DNA of 64,000 nt from Stentor roeselii (Eukaryota > Ciliophora > Heterotrichea > Heterotrichida > Stentoridae). The notes under the pieces were generated by a model. It made no database searches. It saw only the letters and a list, made by a program, of their open reading frames with translations, and had not been told where the DNA came from. The position numbers and the translations under genes were made by a program. Position 1 is the stretch's first letter. Every line of letters begins with the position of its first letter. Below are positions 23,205 to 55,704 of this stretch, piece after piece. The stretch is taken from positions 24,378-88,377 of the forward strand of contig RSEH01000202.1 in the NCBI GenBank assembly GCA_006503475.1, written 5' to 3'.

Positions 23205-23312
23205 TCTATTAGTAACCTAGGCAGAAATAACCCAAACTCATTCTATCTTATAAATCTGTTCATTGTAATTTTTCAAAGCTCCATTGTTATCAGTTATCCT
23301 ACACTTTATAAT

Positions 23313-30133: not shown

Positions 30134-32184
<2,051 letters not shown>

Positions 32185-35560: not shown

Positions 35561-38500
35561 ATGGAAGGTTCAAAAATTCCAGAGTTACTAGAGGATGTTC
35601 TCTCAGGAAGGCCTGAAGACCCTCAATCATTTAAAAACCTCGTGAACAAGTTTCACCAGGTCTTGAGAAGTAGTACAGAAAGAGTGAAAGAAGCCCAAAC
35701 CTACTTTCAAAAATTCAAAGGTCGAATTCCCGAGGGCAATTTCAAATACTTTTCCGACTACCTCTCAAACGTTTCCCAGGTCAAGTCCCAAAAGCCTTCA
35801 ATGGCTTGTTTGCACCTGGTCAACGCATCAGTATCAAAGACTTCAAAGCTGTATAAGGCTATGTTGTCTTTAGAAATCAAAGAAAGTCTCTTGAAATGCA
35901 ACGGTTTCAACTCAATCATCATGGCAGCGAAATCTCAGAAAATCATTGAATCCACTAACTTTGGCACTTTAGAAGCGAAGAGACTCCAATGCGCGCGGTT
36001 GATAGGAAACCTGAAATCAGCTCTTGGCATCAACTTGCAAAAAACTATGACCGCCTGGCAGGTAAAGGCCGGGCAAGACAAGCAGGACGTGAAGAGTCAA
36101 GTCAAGCAAGGACTTAGAGGGTTGGAGCGAAGACATACTATGAATCTTTATGAGAAAAAGGAGAAGGTGTTAAGGATTATCAAAGCGATATTGAAAGCTT
36201 CTCCGATTATTGAACAGACTGCCTTTTGGAGGTGGAAGTTTACGATGCAAGCTGCTAAGGATAAGGATAAGAGATTTAAACATGCGACTGAACTTAGTGA
36301 ATTTATTTTGAAAAGTCGATTTAGGAGGGAAGGAATACAGGCACTGAAAATGAATGCTAGACCTTTGTGGGAAATTCATAAAGGTAAACTTTGGAAAGTT
36401 CTTAGAAGGGGAAGTCTTAGATGGTTTTATTCGCATAAACTTGCTTTTCATCATTGGAGTGGCTTGTTTGATTTCGAGGTCATTCATGAAGTGGAAGAGG
36501 AACAGACTCATACGAAAACTATGAAAATTGTGAAGAAAAGTCAAGAAACTCTTAGGTCTGGTAGAAGAGAACAGAAGAGTGATAAACCTCGAAGTGCTGA
36601 TCGAGCTGAACGACAACAAAGTGGATCTTTGTATATTAAAGCTATACTTCGCAGTGTGTTTAAATATTCGCAGAACAGACTTGAAACTTTCTTTAGGAAA
36701 TGGTCTCTTAGCACGTCATTCAAAAGTTTCGAAGACAAAAAACGCAGAGTTCAAAAGTTCATAGACATCCTTCACCAAGGTCTAAAGCCAAACATCTCAA
36801 AGTGTTTAGTAATGCCAGCAGAGCCAAAATCCCGAGAGCTAATCTTAACAAACGCCTTACTCGCAATCTGCAAAAACATAATCTTCGTAAAAAGCCGTCT
36901 TTTTAACAAGTGGGCACGAAGTAAGACTCCTCTTTCAGCAAGATACGAAGAGTTCCTCCTGCGTTGCCTAGCAAAGATTCCAAAGCAAAGTCTTCAAACA
37001 TATTTTTCCAAATGGAAATCCACTCCAAAGCACCTCGACGCTCCAAAGATGTTCGGGATGATCGCAGTCCTCCATCGAATATTTGCAAACAAAGGAAAGC
37101 GAGTGTTCCACCCGCCTTACATCGTGAAAGACGCAGATGAAATAATGAGAAGAACAATAAAAAAGATAAGGTCAATCATTCACAACTTATACGATTCAGC
37201 CTTTACACGTTGGCATTACCATAAAATCGCTTGTTACACCAGAGAAAAAGCTTGTGTCTTTTACAGAGCTTGTCAATTAGCAGCGAATCCTGTCAAAAAC
37301 GCTTTTTCAAGATGGCGGGAAAAACTTCATTCAAAGGATACTGTTAGAAGGACTCATGCGACTTCGAAACTGGTAAAGGTTCTTGATAAGGCCTTTCGAG
37401 GAAGGTTTAAAGCGGTTTTGTTTAAGAGCTACATGAAGACTAAACCGAAAAAGTTACTTTTTAGAGTTTTTAACTTTTATTCTAAGAAGTATTGTGATGA
37501 AACTAGAACTTCTTTTTATAGGTGGAAAGCTTTGAAAGAAGGAGGCGATGCGAATTCTTTGCAGATTTTACAGGATTCAGCGACTTTTAGCGTTATTAGA
37601 CTGTGGACTAAAAGTATTCACTATCGACTTAAAAGAGGGTTTTACGCTTTTATGAAAGATAATCGCCATGTTAAACTTATCCTTATCAGAGCTTTTATCA
37701 CTTCTTGGAAATATAAAAAGTTTCAGGCTTGGGATAGACTTCGAGTCATAGGAAAAGCTTTTCATGATAAGTTCAAAGCGTTGAAGATGACAACAGCTCT
37801 TAAAAGAGCTGCTCGTAAACCTCAAGTCGTTGGATTTAAACAGTTTGTAGACGCTACTCCTATTAAAACAACTGTCACTAGTTTATTCAAACTTTTCTTG
37901 ATACGCATGCAAAGAGCTTTGTTTCATCTGAAAATTAATGTCAACAATGTCGAGATCAGTGAAGTTAAAACAGTTACCAAAGGACTTAGGAAAAATATTA
38001 AGAATGAAAAACTTAGAAGTGCTCGAGCTGCTGGTAGAAGCTTTATTGAAATTTTGAAACAACTTCCTAAACGCACTTTGAATACTGCTGTTCGGAGAAT
38101 GGCTATGGATCAGAAAAAACATATGAAAGGAGCGATTAAGGCTATTTTAGCTGGATTTGTCATGAAACCGAAAGAAATTATGGCTAAGTGGTATAAGTTT
38201 ATGCATGATTGTCGAAATGGAGATGTCTTGGATCGAGTCAGGGCTGAAAAATTAAAGGCTTGCATGGTTCATTTGGTAAGTAGGAAAATTCGTGATAGCT
38301 ATCAGAGGGTCACTGGTGATGGTAATAAAGTTAAGTCAGTGTTTAAGAGCTTGGTCAGAAGTCTCGAAAGGAAAACCAAGTCTTACCTCGACCTGTGGAA
38401 AGTTTTCATTACCAGATGCAAAAAAGGTGATTTGATGGACGCAATCCGTTCACAAAAGCTCAAACTACTTCTTCACAGTCTCGAAAAAAGAACCATGAAA

Positions 38501-41500
38501 GATGCCTCTCAAAGAATCCTCGGAGCAGGAGACAAAATCAAAGGATCACTAAAAAGCATCATTCGTCAAATCGAAAAAAGAACAAAAGAATCCATGAGAC
38601 TTTGGTATCTTTTCACTCTTGACTGTCGACACGGTAAGTTGATGAACGCCATCAAAAGTGAAAAACTTCGAAGTGCTTTGATGAAAGTGCCTTCCAGGAC
38701 TATGAGAGATGCTTATCAAAGAGTGATTGGTGGAGGTGATAAAATCAAAGGAGCTGTTCGAACTTTAATCAGAAATGTCGAAAAAAGGTCAAAATCTGCT
38801 TATGAAATGTGGAAGGTTTATGTTAATAAATGTAAACAAGGGGCATTGATGGATGGTATTCGTTCTCAAAAGCTTAAAATTGTTCTTTCTGACATCGTTA
38901 AAAGAACTATCAGAGACGCTGATCAGAGAATCCTTGGAGCTGGTGATAAGATATTAGGATCACTTAAAAATATTGTGAAACAAATTGAGAAAAAGACGAA
39001 GGAGTCTCTTAGGATTTGGAAGATCTTTGTTGTTGACTGTAAAAATGGAAAATTGATGAATGCTGTCAAATCTGAAAGACTGAAATTCTGTTTAACGCGA
39101 GTACCTGCCAGAATTATGAGAGATGGTTTACAAAGAGTAGTCGGCGGAGGTGATAAAATCAAAGGAGCTGTTCGAACTTTAATCAGAAATGTCGAAAAAA
39201 GGTCAAAATCTGCTTATGAAATGTGGAAGGTTTATGTTAACAAATGTAAACAAGGTGCACTGATGGATGGTATTCGTTCTCAAAAACTTAAAATTGTTCT
39301 TTCTGACATTGTCAAAAGAACTATCAGAGACGCTGATCAGAGAATCCTTGGAGCTGGTGATAAGATATTAGGATCACTTAAAAATATTGTGAAACAAATT
39401 GAGAAAAAAACAAAAGAATCTCTTAGGCTCTGGAAGATCTTTGTTGTTGACTGTAAAAATGGAAGATTGATCAATGCTGTCAAATCTGAAAGACTGAAGT
39501 TCTGTTTAACCCGAGTACCTGCCAGAATAATGAGAGATGCTTTTCAAAGAGTAGTCGGCGGAGGTGATAAAATCAAAGGAGCTGTTCGAACCTTGATCAG
39601 AAATGTCGAAAAAAGGTCAAAATCTGCTTATGAAATGTGGAAGGTTTATGTTAACAAATGTAAACAAGGTGCACTGATGGATGGTATTCGTTCTCAAAAG
39701 CTTAAAATTGTTCTTTCTGACATCGTTAAAAGAACTATCAGAGACGCTGATCAGAGAATCCTTGGAGCAGGTGATAAGATATTAGGATCACTTAAAAATA
39801 TTGTGAAACAAATTGAGAAAAAAACAAAAGAATCTCTTAGGGTCTGGAAAATCTTTGTTGTTGACTGTAAAAATGGAAAATTGATGAATGCTGTCAAATC
39901 AGAAAGACTCAAATTCTGCCTTAATCGAGTACCTGCTCGAACCATGAGAGACGCTCTTCAAAGGGTTGTTGGAGGAGGCGATAAAATCAAAGGAGCGGTA
40001 AGAACACTAGTCAGAAACATCGAAAGACGTACTAAAATATCTTATCAAATGTGGAAAGTTTACATCCAGAAATGCAAACAAGGTGTTCTTCTCGACGGTA
40101 TCCGAAGTGAAAAGTTAAGATTCGTTTTAAGCAACATAATAAAAAGAACAACTCGGGATTCAACCCAAAGAATTTTAGGTGCAGGTAACAAAATCTTAGC
40201 TTCAATCAAATCAGTAATTCGTCAAATCGAGAAAAAAACAAAAGAATCTCTAAAAATCTGGAAAATTTTCGTCGTTGAATGCAAAACCGGTCTTCTTCTC
40301 GGTGCAGTAAAAAGTCAAAAACTTAAATCATGTCTTTCACGAGTTCCAAGTAGAACTTTAAGAGACTCTTTCCAAAGACTTGTTGGAGGAGGTGATAAAA
40401 TCAAAGGCGCTGTCAGGACACTTATTAGAAATGTTGAAAGAAGGTCAAAAGTCGCTTATTCGATGTGGAAAGGATTTGTTTCAAGATGTAAACAAGGAGC
40501 TTTGATGGATGGGCTTAGGTCGCAAAGGCTCAAGTTTGCTTTAGCAGAAATTGTGAAGAGGACTTTAAGGAATTCTTCTCAGAGAGTCTTGGGAGCTGGA
40601 GATGTTATTAAGGGAGCTGTTAAAGAAATTGTTCGAAGGATTGAAAAAAGACCGATGTTTGCTTTTAATAAGTGGAAGAGCGTTGTTGATGAGATTCAGA
40701 AGTCGAATTTGATGGATGCTGTCCGGTCACAAAAGCTCCGAGCAGCCCTAACCCGAGTCCCTCAAAGAACAATAAAAAGAACATTCAATCTAATAATCGG
40801 CGACGGTAACCAAGTAAAAGGAGCAGTAAAAACAATAGCCCGTCAAATCGAAAAAAAGCCAAAATTCGTTCTAACAAGATGGAGCAAAGTGATAATCGAA
40901 ATCAAGCAAGGCCTTCTCTTCGACGCCTGCCGTACCCAGAAGCTTCGAAGTGCTTTAAACCGTGTTCCAAGCCGAGTATTACGAGACAGCACGCAAAGAA
41001 TCATCGGCTGCGGAGGAAAAATCAAAGGCGCCTTAAGAACTTTAAAGCATTCGATCGAAAAACGACCTGCAGATGCTCTTCGCTTATGGAAAAAGTTCAT
41101 TTACAACGTTCATCGAGGAAAGATGATGGACTGTCTCAGAGCTTATCAATTAAAACTCGTCCTTTCAAGGATTCCGGTTCGTACAATGAGAATGACTTAT
41201 TCTAGAGTTCAAGGACAGGGAAATCTTCTTGCTGGGGTCTTCAGAGGACTGGAGAATAAAATAAAAAACATGCCTCGAACAGCTGTGTTGAAATGGAAAA
41301 ACTGGATAAATGACATTAAAAAAGGAAAGATTCTTGAAGCTGTTAAAGCGGAAAAACTTAAAAATGCACTTAGAAGGATTCCTAATCGAGTTATTAAAGA
41401 TGGGTTTCAGAGAATTATTGGAAATGGAAATAAAGTTGCTGGAGCTATTAAAGGGATTTTTAGGGTTTATCGAAGTATGATGGCGAAAGGACTGGCTAAT

Positions 41501-44500
41501 TGGAAAGGATTTTTAGAAAATTGTAGAAAGAAGAAGTTTTTAGATGCTTTTAGAAGTGAGAAGTTGAAACTTTGTATGTTTAGAATCACTTTGAGAACTT
41601 TGAGAACTGTTAATAATAAAATCGTTGGTATGGGAAATGCTGTTCATGGAGCTTTAATGAAAGTTTTCAAAACTTGTGAAAAAATGCAGGGTGTTGGGAT
41701 GGTCAGTTGGAAGAAGTATGTCGCTCTTTGTAAGAATAAGTCGATTATGGACAATATTCGTTCTCAGAAACTAAAAATCGCTTTAATTGACTTGATGAAG
41801 AGAACTTTAATGTCAACTTTCCACAAAGTTTTTTATGATAAAGTCGATGTGAAAAAAGCCATCAGTTATATTTTCTTCGTTATCAAGCAAAGACCTCGAG
41901 TCGCTTTAACAAATTGGAGACTTTACATGTACGGATGCAAAGCCAAAGCAATATTAGATAATCTCACTTCACAGAAATTGAAAAATGCCCTTATCCAGAT
42001 ACCCAGAAGGACCTTAAGAGGTGCTTTTAACAGAATTCTTGGTGATGGAGATATTGTGAAAGGAGCTCTCAAAGAACTGATATCAAAACTAATGAACCGT
42101 CCAAAGTTCTGCTTCTTTAAATGGACACAATTCGTCCATCTCTGCAAGACTAAAGGTTTCATGGACAATCTCCGTTCAGAGCGCTTGAAATTCGTCTTGT
42201 CTCATCTGAAAAGTCGCACAATGAAATCTTCCTTGTCAAGAATCCTCGGAGGAGGAAGTCTTGCAGTAGGAGCTTTGAAAAAATTGGCAAGTGTCTACAA
42301 AAATAAACCGAGAATCGCTTTGAATAAATGGGTGAAATATCGTGATATGATTAATAAGAATGAAATACTTGATAGTCTCAAATCGCAGAAATTACTGAAG
42401 TCTTTAAGTAAGATTCCTAATAGGACTGTTAGAGGAGCTTTTGAAAGAATTATTGGAGATGGAGATATTGTCAAAGGAGCGATTAGAAGAGTTCTTATTG
42501 CTTTTAAGAATATCAGTAAAAATGCTTTTGATTGTTGGAACAAGTTTAGGATTGGATGCCAGAATAAACAGTTTTTGGATAATATTAAATCTCAGAAGCT
42601 GAAAATTATCATGTTTGCTATTCCTAGAAGGGTCATGAAGGATGGATTTCAAAGAATCATAGGAGACGGCAGCAAAGTCCGAGGTGCAATCAAGACGCTA
42701 TTCGCGAAAATCCAAAAAAAGCCCAAGTTCGCTTTAGAAAAATGGAGAAATTTCGTAAACGACTGCAAGTCCCAAAAGATGATGGACGCAGTTCGATCCC
42801 ATCGTCTTCACAGCTGCCTGACCAGAATTTCCCTCCGAACTTCCCGAGACTCCAGCCAAAGAATAATCGGCGGAGGAAATCGTGCAAAAGGTGCAATGAA
42901 GACGATTTTCATGGCATTTGACAAGAAACTAAAACTATCATTCATTGACTGGAGAAACTTCATGATAGCCTGCAGGTCGAAAAAAATGTTAGACAGTATC
43001 AGAAGTCAAAAACTTTTATTCGTATTAAACAAGATTCCAAAGAAAACCGTGAATGAAGTCTTCACAAAAATCACGAAATCAGGAGGAATCGCGATGAGGA
43101 CCATGAGACGACTCGGGCTTATCTTCATCAAAGGGCCTGAAATTGCAATGAAAAATTGGAAGGCTTTTGTAGATAAAGACAAGGTCGTTGACGTCAAAAA
43201 GGACTTTGAAAATAAATATAAAGGAATGAAAATCAAAAATTCTATTGATAAACCTGTTCGAAAAGTACTTAGATCTGCGAAATCTCATGCAGATCATGAT
43301 AACTCGAAGTTAAAACTTGCGATGAAAAGCTTGGCCTCTGCTGTGACGAAGAGAAATCTTGATGCTGTTCGCCTTTGGCATATTAATTCAGTGAAAAAAG
43401 TCATTGTTGATGTCACAAAAGAAGAAAAAAATACCGTGCTTAATGAAAACTACGGCCTTAGACTTCGAGATGCTTTGAATAAAATGGTTAGAAAAAGCAT
43501 GAGAGACGCTTTTAGAAGAGTCAATCCTGTCAAAAATCGAGCTGCTGATGCTTTAGGAAAATTTGAAGAACTTGTCAGGCAAAGACCGAGACTTGCAATA
43601 TTTAAATGGGTGAAATATGCGGAAAAAGTAAATGCGAATGAACTTTTAAACAATATCAAAACCTTGAAACTCAGGCATTCTCTTGAAAACGTTGCGAAAA
43701 GAGGACTTCGAAACGCTTATCTTATTGTTTCAGGAGATGGAAATCGCGTGAAAGGCGCACTTAAAAGTATCGTTGCAGGAATCAATAAGAAATTAAAGGG
43801 CTCTGTTGAATTCTGGAAGAAATTCGTTGTTAACTGCAGGGAAAAGAGGATGTTTGACTCTATGAGAAGTAGGGATCTGGTTAATTGTATGAAAGGAATC
43901 ACGTCTAGGACTTTAAGAGATGCGACTGAAAGGATTCTTGGAGGAGGAGATAAAATCAAGGGAGCTATTCGAAGATTGTTGAATGGATTGTCTAAGATTC
44001 CGAAAGATTCTATTGAAAAATGGAAAAAATACGTTTTTAATTGCAAAAATAAGTCGATGTTTGATGGAATGAGATCTTTTAAATTGAAAAGTGTATTTGA
44101 AAGACTTGCTAGAAGGACTTTGAAAAATTCTACGAATAGAATTATTGGTGATGGAGATGTTGTTAAAGCGACTTTAAAGGGAATTGTTAAGAAAATGATT
44201 GACCTTCCTAAGGATGCTTTGAAAAAATGGAGGAAATACTTGGAACTTGTTAAGAATAAACAGCTGTTTGATGGGCTTAGAAGTCAGAAACTTAATATTA
44301 CTTTACAAGGAATTCCGAAAAGAACTTTAAGAAGTATTTTTGAGAGAGTCTTGGGTGATGGAAGCTTAGTAAAAGGAGCATTGAGACGTATTCAGTTGAC
44401 TTTACAGAAAAAGACAAAAATTGCTTGGGCATTTTGGATTAAGTACTTAGAAGACTTAAAGAAAAAACGATTCTTTGATAACGCAAGGTCCTTCAACCTC

Positions 44501-47500
44501 AAAATCGTAATGACTCGAATTACACTCAGGACTGAAAGAACTTCATTCTTCAAGATACTCGGAAACAGAGAAATGATCAAGTCGATGGTAAGAAGAATAA
44601 TTGACCGACTCGTAAGAATTCCAAAAGAATCTGTTGAAAAATGGAAGAAATTCGTGTTTTTCTGCAAAAACAAGTCAATGTTTGACGGAATGCGATCTTT
44701 CAAACTCAAAAACGTATTCGAAAGACTTGCAAGAAGGACTATGAAAAACACTGCAAACAGAATTATTGGCGATGGAGACATTGTGAAAGCCACTCTCAAA
44801 GGAATCATCAAGAAAATGATAGACTTACCTAAAGACGCTTTGAAGAAATGGAGAAGATACTTGGAACTTGTGAAAAACAAACAACTGTTTGACGGTCTTC
44901 GAAGTCAGAAACTAAACATAGCTCTTCAAGGAATCCCTAAGAGGTCTTTAAGAAGTATTTTTGAAAGAGTTTTAGGAGATGGAAGTCTTGTGAAAGGAGC
45001 TTTAAGAAGAATTCAACTGACACTGCAGAAAAAGACTAAAATTGCCTGGTCATTTTGGATTAAGTACTTAGAAGACTTAAAGAAAAAACGATTCTTCGAC
45101 AATGCAAGGTCATTCAACCTCAAAATCGTAATGACTCGAATAATCCTCAGGACTGAAAGAACTTCATTCTTTAAGATTCTCGGAAACAGAGAAATGATCA
45201 AGTCGATGGTTAGAAGAATAATTGATCGACTCGTAAGAATTCCAAAAGAATCTGTTGAAAAATGGAAAAAATTCGTGTTTTTCTGCAAAAACAAGTCAAT
45301 GTTTGACGGAATGCGATCTTTCAAACTCAAAAACGTATTCGAAAGACTTTCAAGAAGGACTATGAAAAACACTGCAAACAGAATTATTGGCGATGGAGAC
45401 ATTGTGAAAGCCACTCTTAAAGGAATCATCAAGAAAATGATAGACTTACCTAAAGACGCTTTGAAGAAATGGAGAAAATACTTGGAACTTGTGAAAAACA
45501 AACAACTGTTTGACGGTCTTCGAAGCCAGAAACTAAACATAGCTCTTCAAGGAATCCCGAAGAGGTCTTTAAGAAGTATTTTTGAAAGAGTTTTAGGAGA
45601 TGGAAGTCTTGTGAAAGGAGCTTTAAGAAGAATTCAACTGACACTGCAGAAAAAGACTAAAATTGCCTGGTCATTTTGGATTAAGTACTTAGAAGACTTA
45701 AAGAAAAAACGATTCTTTGATAATGCCAGATCCTTTAATCTGAAACTTGCAATGACTCGCCTAACTAAAAGAACTGAAAGAACAGCATTTTTCCGCATTC
45801 TTGGAAACAGAGACCGAGTCCGAGCAGTTCTACAGTCAGTAGTAGCAGCAATGATGAAAATTCCTAAAATCACAATCGAAAAATGGAAAAAATTCGTATT
45901 CTCCTGCAAAAACAAGTCAATATTCGACATGATGCGATCACAAAAACTGCGAATTTCCTTCGAAAGAATAGTAAGAAGGGTGTTAAAAGACTCATCAAAC
46001 CGAGTCTTAGAAGATGGAAACGTCGTTAAAGCCATCTTAAAATCAATGCTTCGCAAAATGATTAACTTGCCTCGAGACTCACTGAAGATCTGGAAAGATT
46101 ATATCAACAACATCAAGACCAATAAACTACTCGACAACCTTCGAAGTCAGAAACTCAAAAACTCTTTACAAAGGATTCCTATCAGAATTCTTAGAAATGT
46201 ATCTGAAAGATTACTCGGTGAAGGGAATATGATCAAAGGAGCTATTCGAAGAATCACTCTTGCTATTCAAAAGAAACCTAAAGTTGCTTTTGATATCTGG
46301 AAGAAGTTTATTGAAGGAGTTAACCAAAAGAAGTTTTATGATAGTGCAAGGTCAGTTAAACTTCAGATTTGTCTTCAACAGATTGTTAGAAGGACTGAAA
46401 GAGATGCTTCTCTTAGGATTATAGGAGGGGGTAACAAACTAAAAGCAGTCCTCCAAGAAGTCCTGGCACGACTAAGCCGAATTCCAAAAGTCGCAATAGA
46501 CCAATGGAAAAAGTACATCCACCTTCTAAAAGCAAATAAAATTCTAGACAACCTCCGTTCCGAAAAGTTAAAATCTCACATGCAAGGCATTCCAAGACGT
46601 AAACTTCGAGACGTCCTGCAAAGAATGGTCGGCGAAGGAGACAACATAAAAGGCGCTCTTCGGCGAATAATTGCAACTTTGGGTAAAAAAACACGAGAAG
46701 CTTATTCAATCTGGCAAAAATTCGTAATCGGCTGTAAAGAAAAGTCCTTCTTCGACGCTCTCCGCAGTGCAAAGCTGAAAAACTCTTTATCAGCAATTCC
46801 AGTCCGAAGCCTTAAAAGTATCTTCAATCGATTGATAGGAGGAGGAAGTGCAGTAGAAGGTCGTTTAAAGACGATTTTCGCAGCAATAGAGAAACTTCCA
46901 AGAATCGCCTTTAAACGATGGTTAATTTACATGCAAGCCTTAAAAGACAAAAAAATGTTTGACATGATGAGATCCTCAAAGCTAAAGACATCTTTATCCT
47001 CCTTACCCAGAAGGACCTTAGCAGAAGTATTCAAGTCAATAAACGTCCAAGACCAATTAAAGATCTTCAAAAATGCAATGAAAGAAATTCTTCGAGTCCT
47101 TCTCGCCCGTCCTCGAACCGCTTTCACCAACTGGAAAGACTACATCCAAGCCTGTCGAGACAAAAAAATGTTAGACATGGTCAGAAGCCAGAAACTTCTA
47201 AACACGCTCAACAGGATCCCAGTCAGAAAAACCAAAGACGCCTACGCCCGGGTCATCGGCGGCGGGGATAAAGTCAAAGGAAAGCTGAACCTGATGTTCG
47301 CTCAAATCAACCGAATGCCCCACGTCGCCTTCATTCGCTGGAAGAAGTTCGTCGTCGACACCAAGACCAAAGGACTTCTCGACAACATGAAAAGTCTTCA
47401 CCTCAAGCAGTCAATGGAAAGAATGATCAGAAGAACTGTCAGAGGCTCAGTTGAAAAAATTCTTGGAGATGGAAGCCAAGCCGCTGGCGCTTTGAGAAGA

Positions 47501-49912
47501 TTATTCATTCAAATTCAAAAACGAGCACGTGATGGTCTTGAAATTTGGAAACAGTTTATACAAGATGTCAGGAATAAAAAGTTCTTAGATTGTCGAAGGG
47601 CACTGGAGTTGAAACTTGCTTTAGAGAGAATCACGAAAAGAACTTTTAATAACTCGTTGGAAAGGGTCATTGGCGATGGGAATATTGTTGCTGGGGCTTT
47701 GAGAAGACTGGGTATTCAGATTCAGACGAATATGAAAAAAGCTGTGCAGAGTTGGAAAGGTTTTGTGTTGTGGCATCGTCATTTAACGACTTTTAGAAGT
47801 TACAGGTCTTATCGGTTCAATCGGCTGCTTTCAACTGTTGTTAACAAGTCGTTTAGAACGGCTTCTGATGTGATATTGTCGAAAGGGGTGATTCATAAAG
47901 ATGCTACTACTGCAATTCGACGTATTTTCGCTCAATATAAGACAATGTCTCGTCGGTCGTTCTTGGTTTGGAAGGACTACATCGCTCATATCAAACATGG
48001 AGAAATGATGGACCGTGTCACTTCAGTCAAGTTGAAAATGCTTATGGAAAAAATGTCAAATGCACATGTTAGAGGGTCCTTCCTGAGGATTATTGGAGGA
48101 GGAAATCGCGCTTTTGGAATGTTGAAAGCTTTGGCTATTAAATGTCTTCAAGTCCCCAGGGATGCGGTGAAGAAGTGGAAGGATTACTTGAATCAAGTCA
48201 AACTTAATAAACTCCTTGACTCGGCAAAGGCTTTCAAGTTAAAACATTCGATGTTCCATTTGACTTTAAGGACTCTTTTAACTGTTCATAAAAGAATCAC
48301 TGTCGGAAACCCTGATGTTAAAACTGCCATGAATCTCGTTATTGCTAAACATAAAGAAGGCAAAAAACATTTGTGGGAAAAATGGAAAAAGTTTGTTGAT
48401 GACTGCAAAAAACAACTTTTGTTTGATCAGGTTAGAACTGAAAGACTTAGGAAAAAACTTATTGGTTTGCCTTTTAGGATTATGAAAAATGCTCTTGAAA
48501 GAATGCTTGGGGATGGAAGTTCTGTTAAGGGAGCGCTTAGAAGGCTTATTATGAATGTTGAGAAAACTAAAATGGTCAAGTTTAATATTTGGAAAACTGA
48601 AGTTGCTAGAAATAGACAGACTTTCATGATGAAGAAGTTGAAAGCTATGAAGTTTGTTGAGTGCATTTCAAGAGTCAGCTCCAAGACAATAAGATTCACT
48701 TCTGATCGACTAGTAGGCAAGAGACCCACAACCAGTAAAGCCATGCGAAAAGTAATGCATTGTCTAAAACTAAAATATTTCAGTGTTTTCATCGATTGGA
48801 AGAGCAAATTACAAAAGTTGGCTGTACGAGAAGAGAAACTTGCCCGAAAATTCGCAATATTCTCAAACGGTGTTACAAACAGAACACTAAAAACTTCTTT
48901 CAATGTAATTTTAGGCCGGTCACCAATCTTGAACGCGATGAATCGGCTTATAAAGAACTTCACATCACTTCAAAAGGCAGCCATCACTATCCTTTGGGGC
49001 CGCGTTGAGAAGATGAGAACGATAAGAAAGGTGAATTCAGCTTATTATGTCTTTAGAGGACTTTTGAGCTATGAGAAGAAGGTGAAAGTCTTGAGATTTA
49101 CCTACTGGAAGAATATAGACGCAATTCGTAGAGCGATTTTAATGAAAAGGTCGACAGGAAGAATGATGTGCAGCATGTCAGTAAGTTTCGAAGGTGCATT
49201 CTGGAAATGGAAGTACATAATGACTAAAACCGGTAACCCAATAAACCCAAAGCACTCAATCGTAATCAAAAGACTCACCAAGGTCGGTATGAACTACCAA
49301 AAGAGACTTGCCCAATTCGCCTTTTTCAAGTTCATCTTATTTTACAAGTCTCTTCCATTCGGCCAGAAGTTAACTTTACCTCAAGCTCTTGCAAAGATCC
49401 TCAAGCCTGACTCCGAGTCAAATATTCCATCTCCAGAAAAAGAATCAAGACCCATCAGCGCGAATAGCGCTGATATGAAAACTGCTGAAAACCCTGGATA
49501 TGTGAGCAACCCGACAGGTCTAAGTCAAGAAGAAATAAAAGACATGAACCAGATGGGAGCTTTTGAAGTGTTAAGTTTAACAGTGAAGGAAGTTAAATTC
49601 AGGAAACTTGCTTGGGCCTTGTCCGCTATTTTCACTTATAGCAAGCAAGTAGGGTTTTATGATGGAGAAAGAAGTAGGTTGATTGAGCAGATCACTGAGT
49701 TGAGATATGAAAAGCATAGCTTGTTGGAAGATAACAATACTTTAAGACATCATAATGATAGTCTTGTCACTAGTCTTGAAAAAGCGAATGAGGAGTTCCA
49801 GTCGATGAGTCTTCATTTAGACCACTTGAGACTGACGGGCATGATAAGATTGCTTTCGAGAATGGCAGAGCTGAATATGCATGGAGCGTTTATTAGCCTT
49901 AGAAGTAACTAA
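35561..49912 (+). CDS. Giant Sfi1-like repeat protein, candidate centrin/spasmin-binding contractile scaffold
   Basis: One uninterrupted frame encodes 4783 residues. Residues 1-820 hold a non-repeat head and irregular Trp-containing segments (FWRWKF, FFRKWSL, LFNKWAR, YFSKWKS, AFSRWRE). Residues about 822-4487 are some 52 units of 69 residues. The last section (about 4490-4783) has a Ser/Pro linker and a terminal coiled coil. Each unit has two helical halves: one with RSxKLK...RTxRD...RIxGxGD, one ending in AxxxWKKFV. The second half resembles Sfi1 centrin-binding repeats (Ala, Leu-Leu, Trp-Lys). By analogy with giant spasmin-binding proteins of Spirostomum, it may be the backbone binding many centrin/spasmin molecules in myonemes. 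The role is inferred; gene and repeats are direct. Confidence 0.85.
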   Translation: MEGSKIPELLEDVLSGRPEDPQSFKNLVNKFHQVLRSSTERVKEAQTYFQKFKGRIPEGNFKYFSDYLSNVSQVKSQKPSMACLHLVNASVSKTSKLYKAMLSLEIKESLLKCNGFNSIIMAAKSQKIIESTNFGTLEAKRLQCARLIGNLKSALGINLQKTMTAWQVKAGQDKQDVKSQVKQGLRGLERRHTMNLYEKKEKVLRIIKAILKASPIIEQTAFWRWKFTMQAAKDKDKRFKHATELSEFILKSRFRREGIQALKMNARPLWEIHKGKLWKVLRRGSLRWFYSHKLAFHHWSGLFDFEVIHEVEEEQTHTKTMKIVKKSQETLRSGRREQKSDKPRSADRAERQQSGSLYIKAILRSVFKYSQNRLETFFRKWSLSTSFKSFEDKKRRVQKFIDILHQGLKPNISKCLVMPAEPKSRELILTNALLAICKNIIFVKSRLFNKWARSKTPLSARYEEFLLRCLAKIPKQSLQTYFSKWKSTPKHLDAPKMFGMIAVLHRIFANKGKRVFHPPYIVKDADEIMRRTIKKIRSIIHNLYDSAFTRWHYHKIACYTREKACVFYRACQLAANPVKNAFSRWREKLHSKDTVRRTHATSKLVKVLDKAFRGRFKAVLFKSYMKTKPKKLLFRVFNFYSKKYCDETRTSFYRWKALKEGGDANSLQILQDSATFSVIRLWTKSIHYRLKRGFYAFMKDNRHVKLILIRAFITSWKYKKFQAWDRLRVIGKAFHDKFKALKMTTALKRAARKPQVVGFKQFVDATPIKTTVTSLFKLFLIRMQRALFHLKINVNNVEISEVKTVTKGLRKNIKNEKLRSARAAGRSFIEILKQLPKRTLNTAVRRMAMDQKKHMKGAIKAILAGFVMKPKEIMAKWYKFMHDCRNGDVLDRVRAEKLKACMVHLVSRKIRDSYQRVTGDGNKVKSVFKSLVRSLERKTKSYLDLWKVFITRCKKGDLMDAIRSQKLKLLLHSLEKRTMKDASQRILGAGDKIKGSLKSIIRQIEKRTKESMRLWYLFTLDCRHGKLMNAIKSEKLRSALMKVPSRTMRDAYQRVIGGGDKIKGAVRTLIRNVEKRSKSAYEMWKVYVNKCKQGALMDGIRSQKLKIVLSDIVKRTIRDADQRILGAGDKILGSLKNIVKQIEKKTKESLRIWKIFVVDCKNGKLMNAVKSERLKFCLTRVPARIMRDGLQRVVGGGDKIKGAVRTLIRNVEKRSKSAYEMWKVYVNKCKQGALMDGIRSQKLKIVLSDIVKRTIRDADQRILGAGDKILGSLKNIVKQIEKKTKESLRLWKIFVVDCKNGRLINAVKSERLKFCLTRVPARIMRDAFQRVVGGGDKIKGAVRTLIRNVEKRSKSAYEMWKVYVNKCKQGALMDGIRSQKLKIVLSDIVKRTIRDADQRILGAGDKILGSLKNIVKQIEKKTKESLRVWKIFVVDCKNGKLMNAVKSERLKFCLNRVPARTMRDALQRVVGGGDKIKGAVRTLVRNIERRTKISYQMWKVYIQKCKQGVLLDGIRSEKLRFVLSNIIKRTTRDSTQRILGAGNKILASIKSVIRQIEKKTKESLKIWKIFVVECKTGLLLGAVKSQKLKSCLSRVPSRTLRDSFQRLVGGGDKIKGAVRTLIRNVERRSKVAYSMWKGFVSRCKQGALMDGLRSQRLKFALAEIVKRTLRNSSQRVLGAGDVIKGAVKEIVRRIEKRPMFAFNKWKSVVDEIQKSNLMDAVRSQKLRAALTRVPQRTIKRTFNLIIGDGNQVKGAVKTIARQIEKKPKFVLTRWSKVIIEIKQGLLFDACRTQKLRSALNRVPSRVLRDSTQRIIGCGGKIKGALRTLKHSIEKRPADALRLWKKFIYNVHRGKMMDCLRAYQLKLVLSRIPVRTMRMTYSRVQGQGNLLAGVFRGLENKIKNMPRTAVLKWKNWINDIKKGKILEAVKAEKLKNALRRIPNRVIKDGFQRIIGNGNKVAGAIKGIFRVYRSMMAKGLANWKGFLENCRKKKFLDAFRSEKLKLCMFRITLRTLRTVNNKIVGMGNAVHGALMKVFKTCEKMQGVGMVSWKKYVALCKNKSIMDNIRSQKLKIALIDLMKRTLMSTFHKVFYDKVDVKKAISYIFFVIKQRPRVALTNWRLYMYGCKAKAILDNLTSQKLKNALIQIPRRTLRGAFNRILGDGDIVKGALKELISKLMNRPKFCFFKWTQFVHLCKTKGFMDNLRSERLKFVLSHLKSRTMKSSLSRILGGGSLAVGALKKLASVYKNKPRIALNKWVKYRDMINKNEILDSLKSQKLLKSLSKIPNRTVRGAFERIIGDGDIVKGAIRRVLIAFKNISKNAFDCWNKFRIGCQNKQFLDNIKSQKLKIIMFAIPRRVMKDGFQRIIGDGSKVRGAIKTLFAKIQKKPKFALEKWRNFVNDCKSQKMMDAVRSHRLHSCLTRISLRTSRDSSQRIIGGGNRAKGAMKTIFMAFDKKLKLSFIDWRNFMIACRSKKMLDSIRSQKLLFVLNKIPKKTVNEVFTKITKSGGIAMRTMRRLGLIFIKGPEIAMKNWKAFVDKDKVVDVKKDFENKYKGMKIKNSIDKPVRKVLRSAKSHADHDNSKLKLAMKSLASAVTKRNLDAVRLWHINSVKKVIVDVTKEEKNTVLNENYGLRLRDALNKMVRKSMRDAFRRVNPVKNRAADALGKFEELVRQRPRLAIFKWVKYAEKVNANELLNNIKTLKLRHSLENVAKRGLRNAYLIVSGDGNRVKGALKSIVAGINKKLKGSVEFWKKFVVNCREKRMFDSMRSRDLVNCMKGITSRTLRDATERILGGGDKIKGAIRRLLNGLSKIPKDSIEKWKKYVFNCKNKSMFDGMRSFKLKSVFERLARRTLKNSTNRIIGDGDVVKATLKGIVKKMIDLPKDALKKWRKYLELVKNKQLFDGLRSQKLNITLQGIPKRTLRSIFERVLGDGSLVKGALRRIQLTLQKKTKIAWAFWIKYLEDLKKKRFFDNARSFNLKIVMTRITLRTERTSFFKILGNREMIKSMVRRIIDRLVRIPKESVEKWKKFVFFCKNKSMFDGMRSFKLKNVFERLARRTMKNTANRIIGDGDIVKATLKGIIKKMIDLPKDALKKWRRYLELVKNKQLFDGLRSQKLNIALQGIPKRSLRSIFERVLGDGSLVKGALRRIQLTLQKKTKIAWSFWIKYLEDLKKKRFFDNARSFNLKIVMTRIILRTERTSFFKILGNREMIKSMVRRIIDRLVRIPKESVEKWKKFVFFCKNKSMFDGMRSFKLKNVFERLSRRTMKNTANRIIGDGDIVKATLKGIIKKMIDLPKDALKKWRKYLELVKNKQLFDGLRSQKLNIALQGIPKRSLRSIFERVLGDGSLVKGALRRIQLTLQKKTKIAWSFWIKYLEDLKKKRFFDNARSFNLKLAMTRLTKRTERTAFFRILGNRDRVRAVLQSVVAAMMKIPKITIEKWKKFVFSCKNKSIFDMMRSQKLRISFERIVRRVLKDSSNRVLEDGNVVKAILKSMLRKMINLPRDSLKIWKDYINNIKTNKLLDNLRSQKLKNSLQRIPIRILRNVSERLLGEGNMIKGAIRRITLAIQKKPKVAFDIWKKFIEGVNQKKFYDSARSVKLQICLQQIVRRTERDASLRIIGGGNKLKAVLQEVLARLSRIPKVAIDQWKKYIHLLKANKILDNLRSEKLKSHMQGIPRRKLRDVLQRMVGEGDNIKGALRRIIATLGKKTREAYSIWQKFVIGCKEKSFFDALRSAKLKNSLSAIPVRSLKSIFNRLIGGGSAVEGRLKTIFAAIEKLPRIAFKRWLIYMQALKDKKMFDMMRSSKLKTSLSSLPRRTLAEVFKSINVQDQLKIFKNAMKEILRVLLARPRTAFTNWKDYIQACRDKKMLDMVRSQKLLNTLNRIPVRKTKDAYARVIGGGDKVKGKLNLMFAQINRMPHVAFIRWKKFVVDTKTKGLLDNMKSLHLKQSMERMIRRTVRGSVEKILGDGSQAAGALRRLFIQIQKRARDGLEIWKQFIQDVRNKKFLDCRRALELKLALERITKRTFNNSLERVIGDGNIVAGALRRLGIQIQTNMKKAVQSWKGFVLWHRHLTTFRSYRSYRFNRLLSTVVNKSFRTASDVILSKGVIHKDATTAIRRIFAQYKTMSRRSFLVWKDYIAHIKHGEMMDRVTSVKLKMLMEKMSNAHVRGSFLRIIGGGNRAFGMLKALAIKCLQVPRDAVKKWKDYLNQVKLNKLLDSAKAFKLKHSMFHLTLRTLLTVHKRITVGNPDVKTAMNLVIAKHKEGKKHLWEKWKKFVDDCKKQLLFDQVRTERLRKKLIGLPFRIMKNALERMLGDGSSVKGALRRLIMNVEKTKMVKFNIWKTEVARNRQTFMMKKLKAMKFVECISRVSSKTIRFTSDRLVGKRPTTSKAMRKVMHCLKLKYFSVFIDWKSKLQKLAVREEKLARKFAIFSNGVTNRTLKTSFNVILGRSPILNAMNRLIKNFTSLQKAAITILWGRVEKMRTIRKVNSAYYVFRGLLSYEKKVKVLRFTYWKNIDAIRRAILMKRSTGRMMCSMSVSFEGAFWKWKYIMTKTGNPINPKHSIVIKRLTKVGMNYQKRLAQFAFFKFILFYKSLPFGQKLTLPQALAKILKPDSESNIPSPEKESRPISANSADMKTAENPGYVSNPTGLSQEEIKDMNQMGAFEVLSLTVKEVKFRKLAWALSAIFTYSKQVGFYDGERSRLIEQITELRYEKHSLLEDNNTLRHHNDSLVTSLEKANEEFQSMSLHLDHLRLTGMIRLLSRMAELNMHGAFISLRSN
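38645..39886 (+). repeat. Higher-order repeat, 414-bp period, three copies
   Basis: Two alternating 69-residue unit types (NAxKSExLK... and DGIRSQKLK...) are repeated as a pair at 38645, 39059 and 39473. The copies are nearly identical in DNA, so this is a recent expansion within the older array. Confidence 0.88.
44063..45925 (+). repeat. Higher-order repeat, 621-bp period, three copies
   Basis: Three unit types (DGMRSFKLK, DGLRSQKLN, DNARSFNLK) recur as a block at 44063, 44684 and 45305. The second and third copies are almost identical over their first two units and diverge in the third. The first copy shows more synonymous change. Confidence 0.88.
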
Positions 49913-51348: not shown

Positions 51349-53874
51349 TTAAGCATTATCCCTTTCAGCTCTTTTCTTCTCATAATACTTTCTCTTGAAT
51401 TCCTGGAGCTCTTTAGTTTGCCTTTCAATTTCATCTTTATATTCATTAACCTGTGAGTGAAACATGTTAAGTTCACTTGCGATAGATTTCATTTTTCTAG
51501 TAGTTTCCCTGAGTTTTTGTTTATAATGTGAAAGTTCTCGAGCCACATCAACTCCAGGTTGTTTTTCCATGATTTCAGAAAGTTCGACTAAAAGTTTATC
51601 CTTTTCCTGTATCAAGACTTCATGTTCCACACACTGTTCAGTCTTTCCAATCAATAAATTCTGCAAATATTCAACTCTTTTACTAAGTTCTTTCTCATCA
51701 GGATCATTTCCTTCAAGTTCTTTGTACCTGTTGGTATTCATCGAGTTTTCTAATTCTTCTGACAAGGCTTTGACTTTTGTTCTTTCTTGAAGAAGTTCTT
51801 CTTCTAATAAAAAGACTCTTTGTTTTAAGTCTTCAATTTGCGAAGCCATTCTTTTTGCAATGGTAAGAGCGCGGTTTAAGTCAGCGATTTTGAATTTAAT
51901 AAGGCGAATGTCAACAATTCTCTCTTGGTATAAAACTTCACCACGGGCAAGGGCGCTTTGCTGAATTTTTATTTTTTCATATAAAAGAGCAAGTTCATCA
52001 TTTTTTCGAATCAACTGAGTTCCCAGCAGGTCTCTTTGGTTAATGATCTTCTCGTATTGGTCCTTTTGTGCGATTCTTTCATTATCCGAAGCGACAATTA
52101 TTTCTTTTAACTTGATTGCTTCATTTATCAAATTCATTTTACGGTTTTTTAATTCTGAGATGTTTTTTTCGATTTTTTCTTTACTTATTTTTATACCTTC
52201 GTTGATACTCGATTCTTTCGCGTTTTTTGATTGTTTTTCTTTCAGGGTTTTAGATTTTGCCTCGATTTCTTCTTTTAATTGCTCGATTTGGTGATGGTAA
52301 ATTTTGAAGTTTCTTCGAAGTTCTGCAATCATGTCTTGACTTTCGATTAGGTTTTTTGAGTAAAGATTTCTGTCACTTCTGACGGCTTCGCAAAGGTTTT
52401 GCTGTTGTTTTAGCTTTGCTTCGGATTCAAGGTTTTTCTTTTGAAGTTCTGCGATTAGGTTGTTTTTTAGTTTTACCTCTTCCAGGCATTGAGTGTACTT
52501 CGCGTTTGCTTGGGAGGCCTCGATTCCGAACTTTTCTTTGATTTTGCTTAGACGGACTATGTCTTGGTATTGCTTTGCTGCGTCTTCTTCTTTTTCTTTG
52601 ATTTCTGAACGGAGGTGTTCTTCGATTCGAGACTTTTCTGCGATTTCTTCTTGTTTCTTTTTGGTGTCTTCTTCTACGTTTCGCACGCTTTCTTCCATTT
52701 TTTTGGAGTCTTCTTCGAGACTTCCAATAACTTTCCGATCATCCTCAGCTTGTCGTTTAGAAGCTTCAATAACTTTTCCAAGATTATGAATATTTTGCTT
52801 AGCCACATCCTTCTGCAAGTTAGCATCAGCAATAATATCGGCAAGTTTTTTATTTTCACTCTTAATCTTAATAATATCTCTAGTCAAGCTCTGTATTTCT
52901 TGCTGCACATTTAAATTTTTCTGTTTAAGGTCAAAAAGAATTCCTTCATTTTGATTCCTAAGTATTTCCAGCCTTTTATTTTCATTAGACTCATCCTTTT
53001 GTTCAGATTCAAGAACTTTTGTTTTATTCCTAGTTTCAGTGATATCAGCAGCAAGTTGTGTGACTAGTGCTCTAAGTTCTTCCAATTCCTGTTTTTTCTT
53101 CGCCAAGTCAGCAAGTGCATCAACATTCAACTTTTCCTTCTTCTCCGAGTCCTGTTCAAGTTCTCCTCTTTTCTTCCTTGCCTGTTCAAGTTCACTTTCA
53201 AGTCTCTTCCTTCGTCTTTCTTCCCTATCAGTGTTACTTTTACTATTCGCAATAATTTCCTTAATATTCTTTTTTTCCGTTTCCAATCCATTAACTTCTG
53301 ATTCAAGTTTCACATGTTTTTCATTTAAAACCGCATTTTCCGCTTGTAACTTTGTATAAGTCGCATGTTGTGCTTCTCTTTCTTTCAACAAGTTTTTCTT
53401 TTCTTCCATCAAATCATTGATAGTAGTTTTATTATCGACAGCGATTCCAGCACCTTGTTCAACAATTCTTTCAAGTTTCAAGATTTCAGTTTTCAAGCTT
53501 TGAATCATTTGTTTACTTTTAGAGTCCATCTCGCCATGATGTTCAATAAGCTTCCAGGCCTGTTCGACTTCATTTCGAAGGGATCGAATCTGCTCGTTGT
53601 CCTTTTGAGCCATTTTCAGAGCTTCTTGAACGTTTCGCGCGTTGATTTGGATGTCTTTGTTGAGTTCTTTGCACTTTTTTATCAGACGCTTTTCGATTTC
53701 GTGAGAACGCTTTAGAGTTCGATGTAATTTTTCGTAGTCTTGGCGGAATTTTTCAAGAGTTGGGTCGTTTTTCATTTCTTGGAGCATCTGCTCGAAGTCT
53801 CGAACGAATGACTCGTATTCTGTTGGAGTCAAGTCGAGGTCTTGGAATATTTTGTCGAGTCCTTCGTCGGCCAT
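51349..53874 (-). CDS. CFAP58 (CCDC147) homolog, axonemal coiled-coil protein
   Basis: 841 residues, close to the usual CFAP58 length. After about 50 residues it is almost continuous coiled coil, rich in Glu, Lys, Leu and Gln. Family-specific segments are visible: EVEQAWKLIEHH followed by MIQSLKTEILKLERIVEQGAG near 100-145. CFAP58 is a ciliary/flagellar protein needed for axoneme and accessory-structure assembly and intraflagellar transport. The start context is GTTATATAAATG. With SPEF2 it is the second clear ciliary gene here. Confidence 0.87.
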   Translation of the reverse strand: MADEGLDKIFQDLDLTPTEYESFVRDFEQMLQEMKNDPTLEKFRQDYEKLHRTLKRSHEIEKRLIKKCKELNKDIQINARNVQEALKMAQKDNEQIRSLRNEVEQAWKLIEHHGEMDSKSKQMIQSLKTEILKLERIVEQGAGIAVDNKTTINDLMEEKKNLLKEREAQHATYTKLQAENAVLNEKHVKLESEVNGLETEKKNIKEIIANSKSNTDREERRRKRLESELEQARKKRGELEQDSEKKEKLNVDALADLAKKKQELEELRALVTQLAADITETRNKTKVLESEQKDESNENKRLEILRNQNEGILFDLKQKNLNVQQEIQSLTRDIIKIKSENKKLADIIADANLQKDVAKQNIHNLGKVIEASKRQAEDDRKVIGSLEEDSKKMEESVRNVEEDTKKKQEEIAEKSRIEEHLRSEIKEKEEDAAKQYQDIVRLSKIKEKFGIEASQANAKYTQCLEEVKLKNNLIAELQKKNLESEAKLKQQQNLCEAVRSDRNLYSKNLIESQDMIAELRRNFKIYHHQIEQLKEEIEAKSKTLKEKQSKNAKESSINEGIKISKEKIEKNISELKNRKMNLINEAIKLKEIIVASDNERIAQKDQYEKIINQRDLLGTQLIRKNDELALLYEKIKIQQSALARGEVLYQERIVDIRLIKFKIADLNRALTIAKRMASQIEDLKQRVFLLEEELLQERTKVKALSEELENSMNTNRYKELEGNDPDEKELSKRVEYLQNLLIGKTEQCVEHEVLIQEKDKLLVELSEIMEKQPGVDVARELSHYKQKLRETTRKMKSIASELNMFHSQVNEYKDEIERQTKELQEFKRKYYEKKRAERDNA

Positions 53875-54261
53875 TTATATAACCGCCATTGGTTTGTTTG
53901 TTGGAATGGAAAAGTTAGGGGGTTTTGGCTTTTCGAGATTGGACTGAAGAATTTTTTGAGGTTTTTGAGATTAAGTGAAGATTTTTTAAGGGTTTGAGAT
54001 TTTATTTAGGTTTAGGGTAGGTATTAAAGTGATTTTTAAGGATTTATTTGAAATAAGAATTATTCTAGGATGGTGAATTCATTTTCTTTATTTTAATATA
54101 GAGCTTAAGCTAAATATTCAAGTAGGGTACTTGATATTTATTGAAAATTTCAAATCATTCAATTTTTTGATACCCTTAAATTCCTTGATTGGTTCTTCGA
54201 ACTTTATCATGGACCTCAGTGATAAGAAATTTAAAAAAATTTCATCAAATTATTGGTAAAA
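53875..54261. other. Divergent intergenic region, CFAP58 / CDPK-like pseudokinase
   Basis: 387 bp. The first 150 bp are G/T-rich on the plus strand (C-rich on the CFAP58 coding strand), and the rest is AT-rich. No gene or RNA is recognised. Confidence 0.5.
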
Positions 54262-55704
54262 ATGGGTTGTTGTAACTCGTCTCTTCCAGCAGCTCCAGTC
54301 CAAGAGCTGCGTTCATTCCGGTCTGAAAAAGATTCTTCTACCAGGAAGCATACAGTTAAAAGAGAAAATTTGATGGCGATAAAAGAGCAAGGCGAGCTAA
54401 AAGATTCATTCGAGGTGTTAACCGTGATTGGAAGTACTCACAATGGGATACTTTTATCAGCGAAGGACCTGCGAAGTGGAACGATTAGAACAATAAACGA
54501 GATTAGCAAGTCTTCGTCGATTGACTACGGCGAGATCTTGAAAGAAGTCTCGATTCTCAATTCTTTAGACCATCCAAATATATTAAAATGTTATCAAACC
54601 ATTGAATCTACGAAAAGCATTTATATTGTACTTGAAAGCACTGATGGAGGACCTCTTCAAAATCGCATCAAAACTAGTTGCAATGAAGTTCTTGTTGCTA
54701 GGTATATGAGGGATGTTTTCAGTGCTATCAACTATATGCATGTTAATGGAGTTATTCATTGTAATCTTCATGTTGGGAATTTACTTCTTTCGAATGATTC
54801 ACAAGATGCAGTGGCTAAAATAGTAGGATTCACCCACTCACAAAAAAAAGACAGCAAAGACTCCTTCGACATAAGCGACTTACACCCAGAATACATATCG
54901 CCAGACCTACTAGACGACGACTACGACGAGAAGACCGACATCTGGAGTGCAGGGATAATAGTCTACCAGCTTCTAGTCCAAAAGCTTCCATTCACAAGCA
55001 AGCGTAAAAAAGAGATGCTAGAGTCAATCTACAAAGGCGACCTTGACTTCGAGAACCCGACATTCCTTGCTTTATCCCACAACGCTCAAGACTTCCTAAA
55101 GAAAATCTTAAAACGAGATAAATCAGAACGACTTTCAGCAAAAGACGCATTAAACCACCCATACCTCTTCCAATCCTCACAAGAAGTAGCTCTAACCTAC
55201 GAGGTAGTTCAAAAAATGAGAAGATTTAAAGTAATCCTCATTTAGATCAAAACAAATATCGTCAGAGCCATTTTGACTTACATGAACTTTAAATTGGACT
55301 TTCAAGAGCACAGCATTATTTCTCTATTCAAGAAGATGGACACTGATTTTAACGGGAATATCAGCAAAGAAGAGATGCTTTCTTCCTTTCAACAAATCGG
55401 AGTAGAAGCTGAAAATGAAGTCGACTCTATCATGGCTAACCTCGACATGGACGGAAGTGGAAGTCTTGATTTTTCTGAGTTGAAAATCGTCTTAATTGAC
55501 TGGAACGCGCAGATAAAAAGAAAAATTCTTGGAAAAGTTTTTGTCGCTGAAAGTGACTCGATTGAATTTGAAAGTTTTAAACATGAACTCAGTGAAATCT
55601 TGCCTAGTGAATGGACTGAGTTCTGCAAAAAGGTTAGAGTTGAACATGGAAGAGTTGGTCTTGCAAAATTGAAGGAGTACATCAGGGCTAATTTAGCTTA
55701 TTAG
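54262..55704 (+). CDS. CDPK-like pseudokinase with EF-hands, one 15-nt intron
   Basis: Exons 54262-55230 and 55246-55704 give 475 residues. MGCCNSS is a myristoylation/palmitoylation signal, and the ATG at 54262 is chosen for it. The kinase-like domain (about 48-310) keeps the fold, but the active site is lost. The Gly loop is GSTHNG, the Lys of the AxK motif is Asn79, HRDLK is H166-C-N168-L-H170, and DFG is G189-F-T191. Exon 2 adds two canonical EF-hand loops (355-366 and 390-401) and two degenerate ones. It therefore probably binds Ca2+ and membranes without kinase activity, perhaps as a scaffold or decoy for the active CDPK type at 19229. Confidence 0.85.
55231..55245 (+). other. 15-nt spliceosomal intron (CDPK-like pseudokinase)
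   Basis: The sequence is GTAATCCTCATTTAG, phase 0. It joins the kinase-like domain to the junction and EF-hand exon, as in every CDPK. Retention ends the protein at TAG. Confidence 0.92.

Follow-up and report, generated by a model that had tools for sequence, protein, structure and literature searches.

A 4,783-residue protein of Stentor roeselii built on 52 tandem tryptophan-anchored units, a candidate giant scaffold for centrin/spasmin proteins

The locus and its genes

The stretch of 64,000 nucleotides that was analysed (the window; contig RSEH01000202.1 of Stentor roeselii) contains one very long open frame among other genes, including MFS-type transporter, acyl-CoA oxidase and kinase-like genes. 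The features discussed below are the following.

19229-20668, kinase-like gene with EF hands (Pfam)
21159-28377, + strand, three acyl-CoA oxidase genes in tandem that resemble each other (Pfam ACOX)
30134-31543, + strand, MFS-type transporter gene, frame restored by two 15-nt introns (30796-30810 and 30977-30991)
35561..49912, + strand, single open frame of 4,783 aa, 555 kDa, pI 10.8 (ORF translation)
35561..38116, + strand, N-terminal 852 aa with 16 Trp, without 69-residue periodicity, with Trp pairs 34 residues apart (451/485, 551/585, 682/716)
38117..48931, + strand, core of 52 Trp-anchored units of 69 residues (207 bp)
38686..40085, + strand, recent tandem duplication of two units (414 bp), with 3.4 copies and 91% matches
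43085..43534, + strand, irregular stretch where units W2533 and W2606 are degenerate and the next steps measure 219 and 231 bp
44156..45811, + strand, recent three-unit (621 bp) duplication from W2890 to W3373, near-identical units
48932..49909, + strand, C-terminal 326 aa with a Trp pair 34 apart (4516/4550), a linker that is Ser/Pro-rich by eye, and a tail
54253-55704, + strand, kinase gene that encodes EF hands and is interrupted by a 15-nt intron at 55231-55245 (Pfam kinase domain 3.3e-49)

A preliminary description of this DNA had reported a single 14.35-kb frame of 4,783 residues, which was confirmed: 35561-49912 on the + strand has zero internal stops, and the probability of a run of 4,783 codons without a stop was about 10^-160 for bases drawn independently at this composition. 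The encoded protein contains 79 Trp and carries a net charge of +723. That the frame is free of introns, as also reported, was supported but is unproven, since two GTA..YAG strings, of 15 and 16 nt, are present inside it. Three 15-nt introns restore the frames of two neighbouring genes. Introns of the heterotrich Blepharisma are described as predominantly 15 and 16 bp, with UGA read as Trp (PMC9942806), and a passage on Stentor reports unusually small introns and ORFs called with the standard code (PMC9371601). The stops that ended ORFs here were TAA in 11, TAG in 8 and TGA in 4 cases (23 of the 33 window ORFs), counts in which some ends may be artefacts where an intron interrupts the reading frame. 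Use of all three standard stops together with the 15-nt introns points to a Stentor-like heterotrich as the likeliest origin of the DNA.

Several Trp sites of the N-terminal 852 residues have hydrophobic residues at both -7 and -3, as in Sfi1. A single-sequence fold prediction for this part reached a pLDDT of 39 and was set aside. The C-terminal tail gave weak, sub-cut-off Pfam matches to coiled-coil-type profiles only.

A phased array of 69-residue units

Start-to-start steps measured exactly 207 bp in 47 of 51 cases, the other four being 219, 231, 213 and 216 bp, which bears out the earlier count of about 52 phased 69-residue units. Identity autocorrelation along the protein was 0.25 at a lag of 69, 0.29 at 138 and 0.29 at 207 against a background of 0.07, with the peaks at 69, 138, 207 and 276 residues spanning 0.25-0.29. 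Forty-nine Trp pairs were spaced exactly 69 residues apart, compared with a mean of 1.3 and a maximum of 6 in 300 shuffles. Two of the 52 units (W2533 and W2606) were degenerate after the Trp. Regular units were basic with a mean net charge of +11 and a range of +7 to +15 (50 of the 52 units counted).

With the anchor Trp set to 0, the upstream part of the unit reads D-K-V-K-G-A-L-K-x-I-I from -24 to -14, followed by I at -11, and basic residues at -9, -8 and -6; position -7 is Pro, Thr or Ser in 42/52. Position -3 was hydrophobic in every unit (52/52), +3 was F or Y in 46/52 and +7 was C, V, I or L in 47/52. Further downstream are hydrophobic residues at 12-13, D14, R-S at 17-18, K-L at 20-21, L25 and I28, and the distal part features R31-T32, R39-I40 and G42-x-G44, the Gly being kept in 43/52 units at +42 and in 42/52 at +44. 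The proposed single Trp-Lys site per unit was borne out in outline: the Trp stood in 52/52 units by construction, and Lys or Arg was found at +1 in 39/52. A second helical half without Trp had also been proposed and was upheld, as none of the six additional Trp within units falls outside -3 to +6 relative to the anchor and AlphaFold2 predicts one 31-residue helix in the second half.

Selection on the units

Nine hand-picked pairs of recent unit copies differed by 112 synonymous changes at 397 sites and 36 nonsynonymous changes at 1,466 sites, a dN/dS of about 0.07 (0.070). By half, the ratio was 0.052 for the Trp half and 0.086 for the second half. Three copies of the unit W1084 had 6 pairwise synonymous differences and zero amino-acid changes. 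Recent copies thus differ mainly at synonymous sites and the protein is therefore constrained, with purifying selection acting on both unit halves. Mean column entropy over the 52 units was 2.16 bits in the Trp-less half and 2.42 bits in the Trp half, the Trp-less half being slightly more conserved. A pooled dN/dS of 0.655 over 36 pairs was dropped because saturated old pairs were mixed in.

One tryptophan site per unit

Each unit had been thought to offer two centrin/spasmin sites about 34 residues apart. This proposal was dropped after a search for a half-repeat of about 34 residues, in which autocorrelation at lags 33-36 was at background and the unit halves were without detectable homology: their profile self-comparison, ungapped and gapped, did not exceed permuted controls (score 6.5; permuted mean 5.95; 30% of permutations equal or better). 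The second half scored higher when reversed (7.5) than in its true orientation. Trp pairs 34 residues apart numbered four, all of them in the flanks listed above and outside the core. A Trp-less hydrophobic triad at +21/+25/+28 was present in 49/52 units and may be a second site of lesser strength; it is separated by 28 residues from the preceding Trp and by 41 from the following one. Around 100 partners per molecule is about double the number backed by the core Trp sites and seems the less likely figure; some 52 predicted core docking sites plus those in the flanks are the safer count.

Centrin-type motifs and their polarity

The Sfi1 consensus is given as Ax7LLx3[FL]x2W[KR] (PMC5112337, PMC9406199). 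It had 0 matches in the 4,783 residues and likewise 0 in shuffled sequences. In Pfam scans run without a positive control, the Sfi1 model was absent from the matches of the whole protein (E 10) and of the two flanks and three 4-unit pieces (E 5), and no Sfi1 family was among the best 25 of the 31 families matched by the 52 single units. With the core hydrophobic triad also apparently directed the opposite way, the label Sfi1-like was not sustained in its strict sense, including by the profile search of single units that the preliminary description had envisaged.

The shorter pattern [FLW]xxW[KR] is described as a minimal centrin motif and as the basis for naming a Plasmodium Sfi1-like protein (PMC10180636). 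It occurred 29 times in the giant protein against a mean of 3.0 and a maximum of 10 in 500 shuffles, an enrichment that is inflated and reflects far fewer independent events because the units are duplicates of one another. Elsewhere in the window there were 8 occurrences in 29 ORFs totalling 13,561 aa. The motif was present in 23/52 units, or in 39/52 if any of FLWYIVM is allowed at -3.

Centrin targets are described as W1xxL4xxxL8 running forward, as in XPC, or reversed, as in Sfi1, with the Trp at position 1 weighing most and position 8 least (PMC9406199, PMC8622359). The forward triad W1-4-8 (hydrophobic at 0/+3/+7, Cys counted) was present in 46/52 core units and the reverse triad 8-4-1 (hydrophobic at -7/-3/0) in 5/52. 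The 21 flank Trp had a large hydrophobic residue at -7 in 11 cases and at -3 in 14. Core Trp sites would accordingly appear to be oriented as in XPC and some flank sites as in Sfi1, an assignment of polarity that we treat as hypothetical because -3 is hydrophobic in 52/52 units, position 8 is a minor one and amphipathic helices commonly show such spacing.

Ten flank Trp sites picked by hand aligned to the core profile without a shift in register, the Trp residues coinciding, with a score of 17.8 (17.5 in a repeat), and two control series of 200 random Trp-window sets each from other window genes reached maxima of 11.2 and 13.2. All 21 flank sites taken unselected scored 11.7, above the first control maximum and within the range of the second series. 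This gives modest support to a Trp site type that flanks and core may share.

Predicted structure and database searches

Three consecutive units were submitted to AlphaFold2 with an alignment of 15 non-overlapping 3-unit rows. In the first of the three units helices were predicted from -23 to -9, from -6 to +8 including the Trp, and from +11 to +41, and the other units were similar. The breaks fall at a Pro/basic turn, at +9/+10 and at the Gly-x-Gly. Mean pLDDT was 75 and pTM 0.26, and the packing of helix on helix was not confidently predicted. At the textbook rise of 0.15 nm per helix residue, a 69-residue helix would measure about 10 nm, compared with about 4.7 nm for the longest helix in the prediction. 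Yeast Sfi1, in contrast to the three predicted helices with breaks in each unit here, is described as a long helix (PMC8622359). Centrin binding might straighten the broken helices of the unit.

A Foldseek search with the predicted fold returned five matches, the best at E 3.5 and none significant. PDB searches for solved relatives by sequence, including core-unit and flank-site profiles, gave chance matches only, and a human SFI1 repeat peptide used as a PDB probe gave no match. One 4-unit query each against viral and prokaryote collections found no relatives.

Relation to known scaffolds

Zhang et al. 2023 (Sci Adv) reportedly described the giant spasmin-binding proteins GSBP1 and GSBP2 of Spirostomum. 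These are likewise giant heterotrich repeat proteins, reportedly proposed as a backbone for many EF-hand proteins, a likeness that is by description only, and it is plausible that a 69-residue unit is common to GSBP and the present protein. PtCenBP1 of the Paramecium infraciliary lattice is said to have been reported by Gogendeau in 2007. This, too, is a large ciliate protein with many repeated sites, likened here by description, and the very large size and many Trp sites of the Stentor protein (4,783 aa, 79 Trp, 52 units) are as in such scaffolds. In a review, PtCenBP1 is characterised as large, with repeated centrin-binding motifs, and Ca2+-driven shortening is proposed for it (PMC6189993). 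To speak of an undescribed system, as had been done, was therefore too strong, since the review already covers a ciliate scaffold of this sort. Giant centrin/spasmin scaffolds of ciliates are already known, and the Stentor protein is probably to be grouped with them by its way of working and not by Sfi1 membership.

Sfi1 of yeast, human and Toxoplasma resembles the giant protein in its tandem Trp sites, the hydrophobic residue at -3 and the basic residue at +1. It differs in its period of about 33 compared with 69 in the core, in the LL at -8/-7 that the core does not have, in its reverse W-4-8 triad compared with the forward triad of the core, and in being described as a long helix whereas the core has Gly-x-Gly and Pro breaks. 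The centrin-binding helix of XPC and of plant Rad4 shares the forward W1-x2-hydrophobic4-x3-hydrophobic8 pattern (PMC8622359), although these are single sites in nuclear proteins and not an array. A literature search on the combination of 'centrin-binding' with '69-amino-acid' found no paper, within a scope that took in this wording alone and left the GSBP and PtCenBP1 papers aside.

A candidate centrin/spasmin scaffold

The best reading of the locus, to which we give a probability of roughly 0.6, is a giant centrin/spasmin scaffold of the heterotrich cortical contractile system, with binding, localisation and contraction being what we infer from precedent. This part of the preliminary description stood on the motif enrichment and the basic units; its strict Sfi1 type, its 34-residue pairs and its hundred or so partners failed or were weakened. 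The forward triad in 46/52 units, the alignment of flank sites with the core and the purifying selection on both unit halves also count in favour of a scaffold. A passage on TgCEN1 notes a negatively charged surface (PMC9406199), and the unit charge of about +11 would suit docking because it is opposite to that of acidic centrins. Stentor myonemes are described as made of centrin-like EF-hand proteins (PMC8511388), heterotrichs as having centrin-like or spasmin fibres (PMC8511388, PMC12661445), and centrin/spasmin on giant scaffolds is discussed for myonemes (PMC12661445).

On this reading each 69-residue unit would offer one Trp-anchored, basic amphipathic helix to an acidic centrin/spasmin EF-hand protein and the flanks would supply additional sites nearer the classic Sfi1 type, such that about 50-60 EF-hand proteins might line one molecule. 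A rise in Ca2+ would make the EF-hand proteins alter their grip or touch each other, the jointed helical chain would shorten, and removal of Ca2+ would reset it. Every step beyond the Trp sites on offer is one that we infer.

Several observations argue against a centrin/spasmin scaffold. Position -7 is mostly Pro, Thr or Ser where Sfi1 has Leu, and neither a full Sfi1 consensus, nor a Pfam Sfi1 match, nor a structural relative by sequence or fold was found. Ordinary amphipathic helices can likewise show spacings of the W-4-8 type, and the calmodulin-type 1-5-8-14 spacing fits 42 times if C and M are allowed. No stand-alone centrin-like or EF-hand gene was found by Pfam among the 29 other window ORFs, where EF hands were confined to the two kinase-like genes.

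A more specific form of EF-hand scaffold is possible though rather unlikely, namely a distinct class in which 52 three-helix units form a jointed rod, each with a Trp site in the XPC direction and a Trp-less triad of reverse polarity. One EF-hand protein would then bridge the Trp site and the +21/+25/+28 triad on a Ca2+ rise and close the joints, and shortening would come from hinge closure inside every unit and not from a single continuous Sfi1 helix collapsing.

The sequence evidence that speaks for EF-hand docking would apply equally to a centrin scaffold that serves basal bodies or oral fibres and does not contract, one that would space or anchor basal bodies in the manner of Tetrahymena SFR proteins. 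Tetrahymena is described as having 13 Sfi1-repeat proteins, of which one that was studied sits at basal bodies (PMC5112337), and some flank sites here resemble ordinary Sfi1 repeats. The SFR protein described there is, however, small (212 aa, 3 repeats; PMC5112337), and a regular 52-unit array would be more readily likened to a fibre backbone than to a basal-body linker. We regard this role as a minority possibility. It is improbable that the array docks calmodulin or another EF-hand protein in place of centrin/spasmin, although the sole Pfam model above cut-off for the whole protein was CaATP_NAI, the autoinhibitory segment of Ca2+-ATPases, which we take to be calmodulin-binding (E 9.9e-7; 28.6 bits, curated cut-off 25). 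Its best stretch covered just 18 residues, and only 3/52 single units were matched at E 1, the best at E 0.01. Long calmodulin-binding arrays do exist, for example the IQ repeats of ASPM, and the 42 matches to the permissive 1-5-8-14 spacing compare with a shuffle mean of 3.3. The strict spacing gave 13 against 2.6, and IQ motifs were lacking, with 0 complete and 1 incomplete against shuffle means of 0.03 and 2.5.

It is equally doubtful that the units are a basic alpha-helical structural repeat without EF-hand binding, in which the Trp would pack between the protein's own helices or contact microtubules or membranes. The three predicted helices per unit with their breaks, the finding that the Trp-less half is at least as conserved as the Trp half (2.16 against 2.42 bits) and the lack of a family match are consistent with such a repeat. 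Against it, the pTM of 0.26 came with no packed fold and Foldseek gave nothing significant, and a kept Trp amid basic residues together with Sfi1-like flank sites would be better explained by EF-hand docking.

In our judgement, the contraction of ciliates, which takes milliseconds, is driven by Ca2+ and uses no ATP during the stroke, still awaits a molecular account. A complete array, phased exactly and retaining one Trp site in every 69 residues, provides a defined minimal fragment for reconstitution with centrin or spasmin, and makes site number, polarity and the choice between hinge closure and helix collapse directly testable.

Surrounding genes

The genomic location offers no direct functional hint for the giant protein. 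Ciliary genes lie nearby at 51349-53874 (-) and 11611-15270 (-), encoding a CFAP58 coiled coil (Pfam E 6e-53) and a CPC1/SPEF2-type protein, respectively. The kinase gene at 54253-55704 (+) reads by eye as a pseudokinase, with HCN for HRD and VGF for DFG, despite its Pfam kinase match. In this gene-dense window, 59236-61633 is a long stretch without a listed ORF, and GC content is about 25% at 60001-62000.
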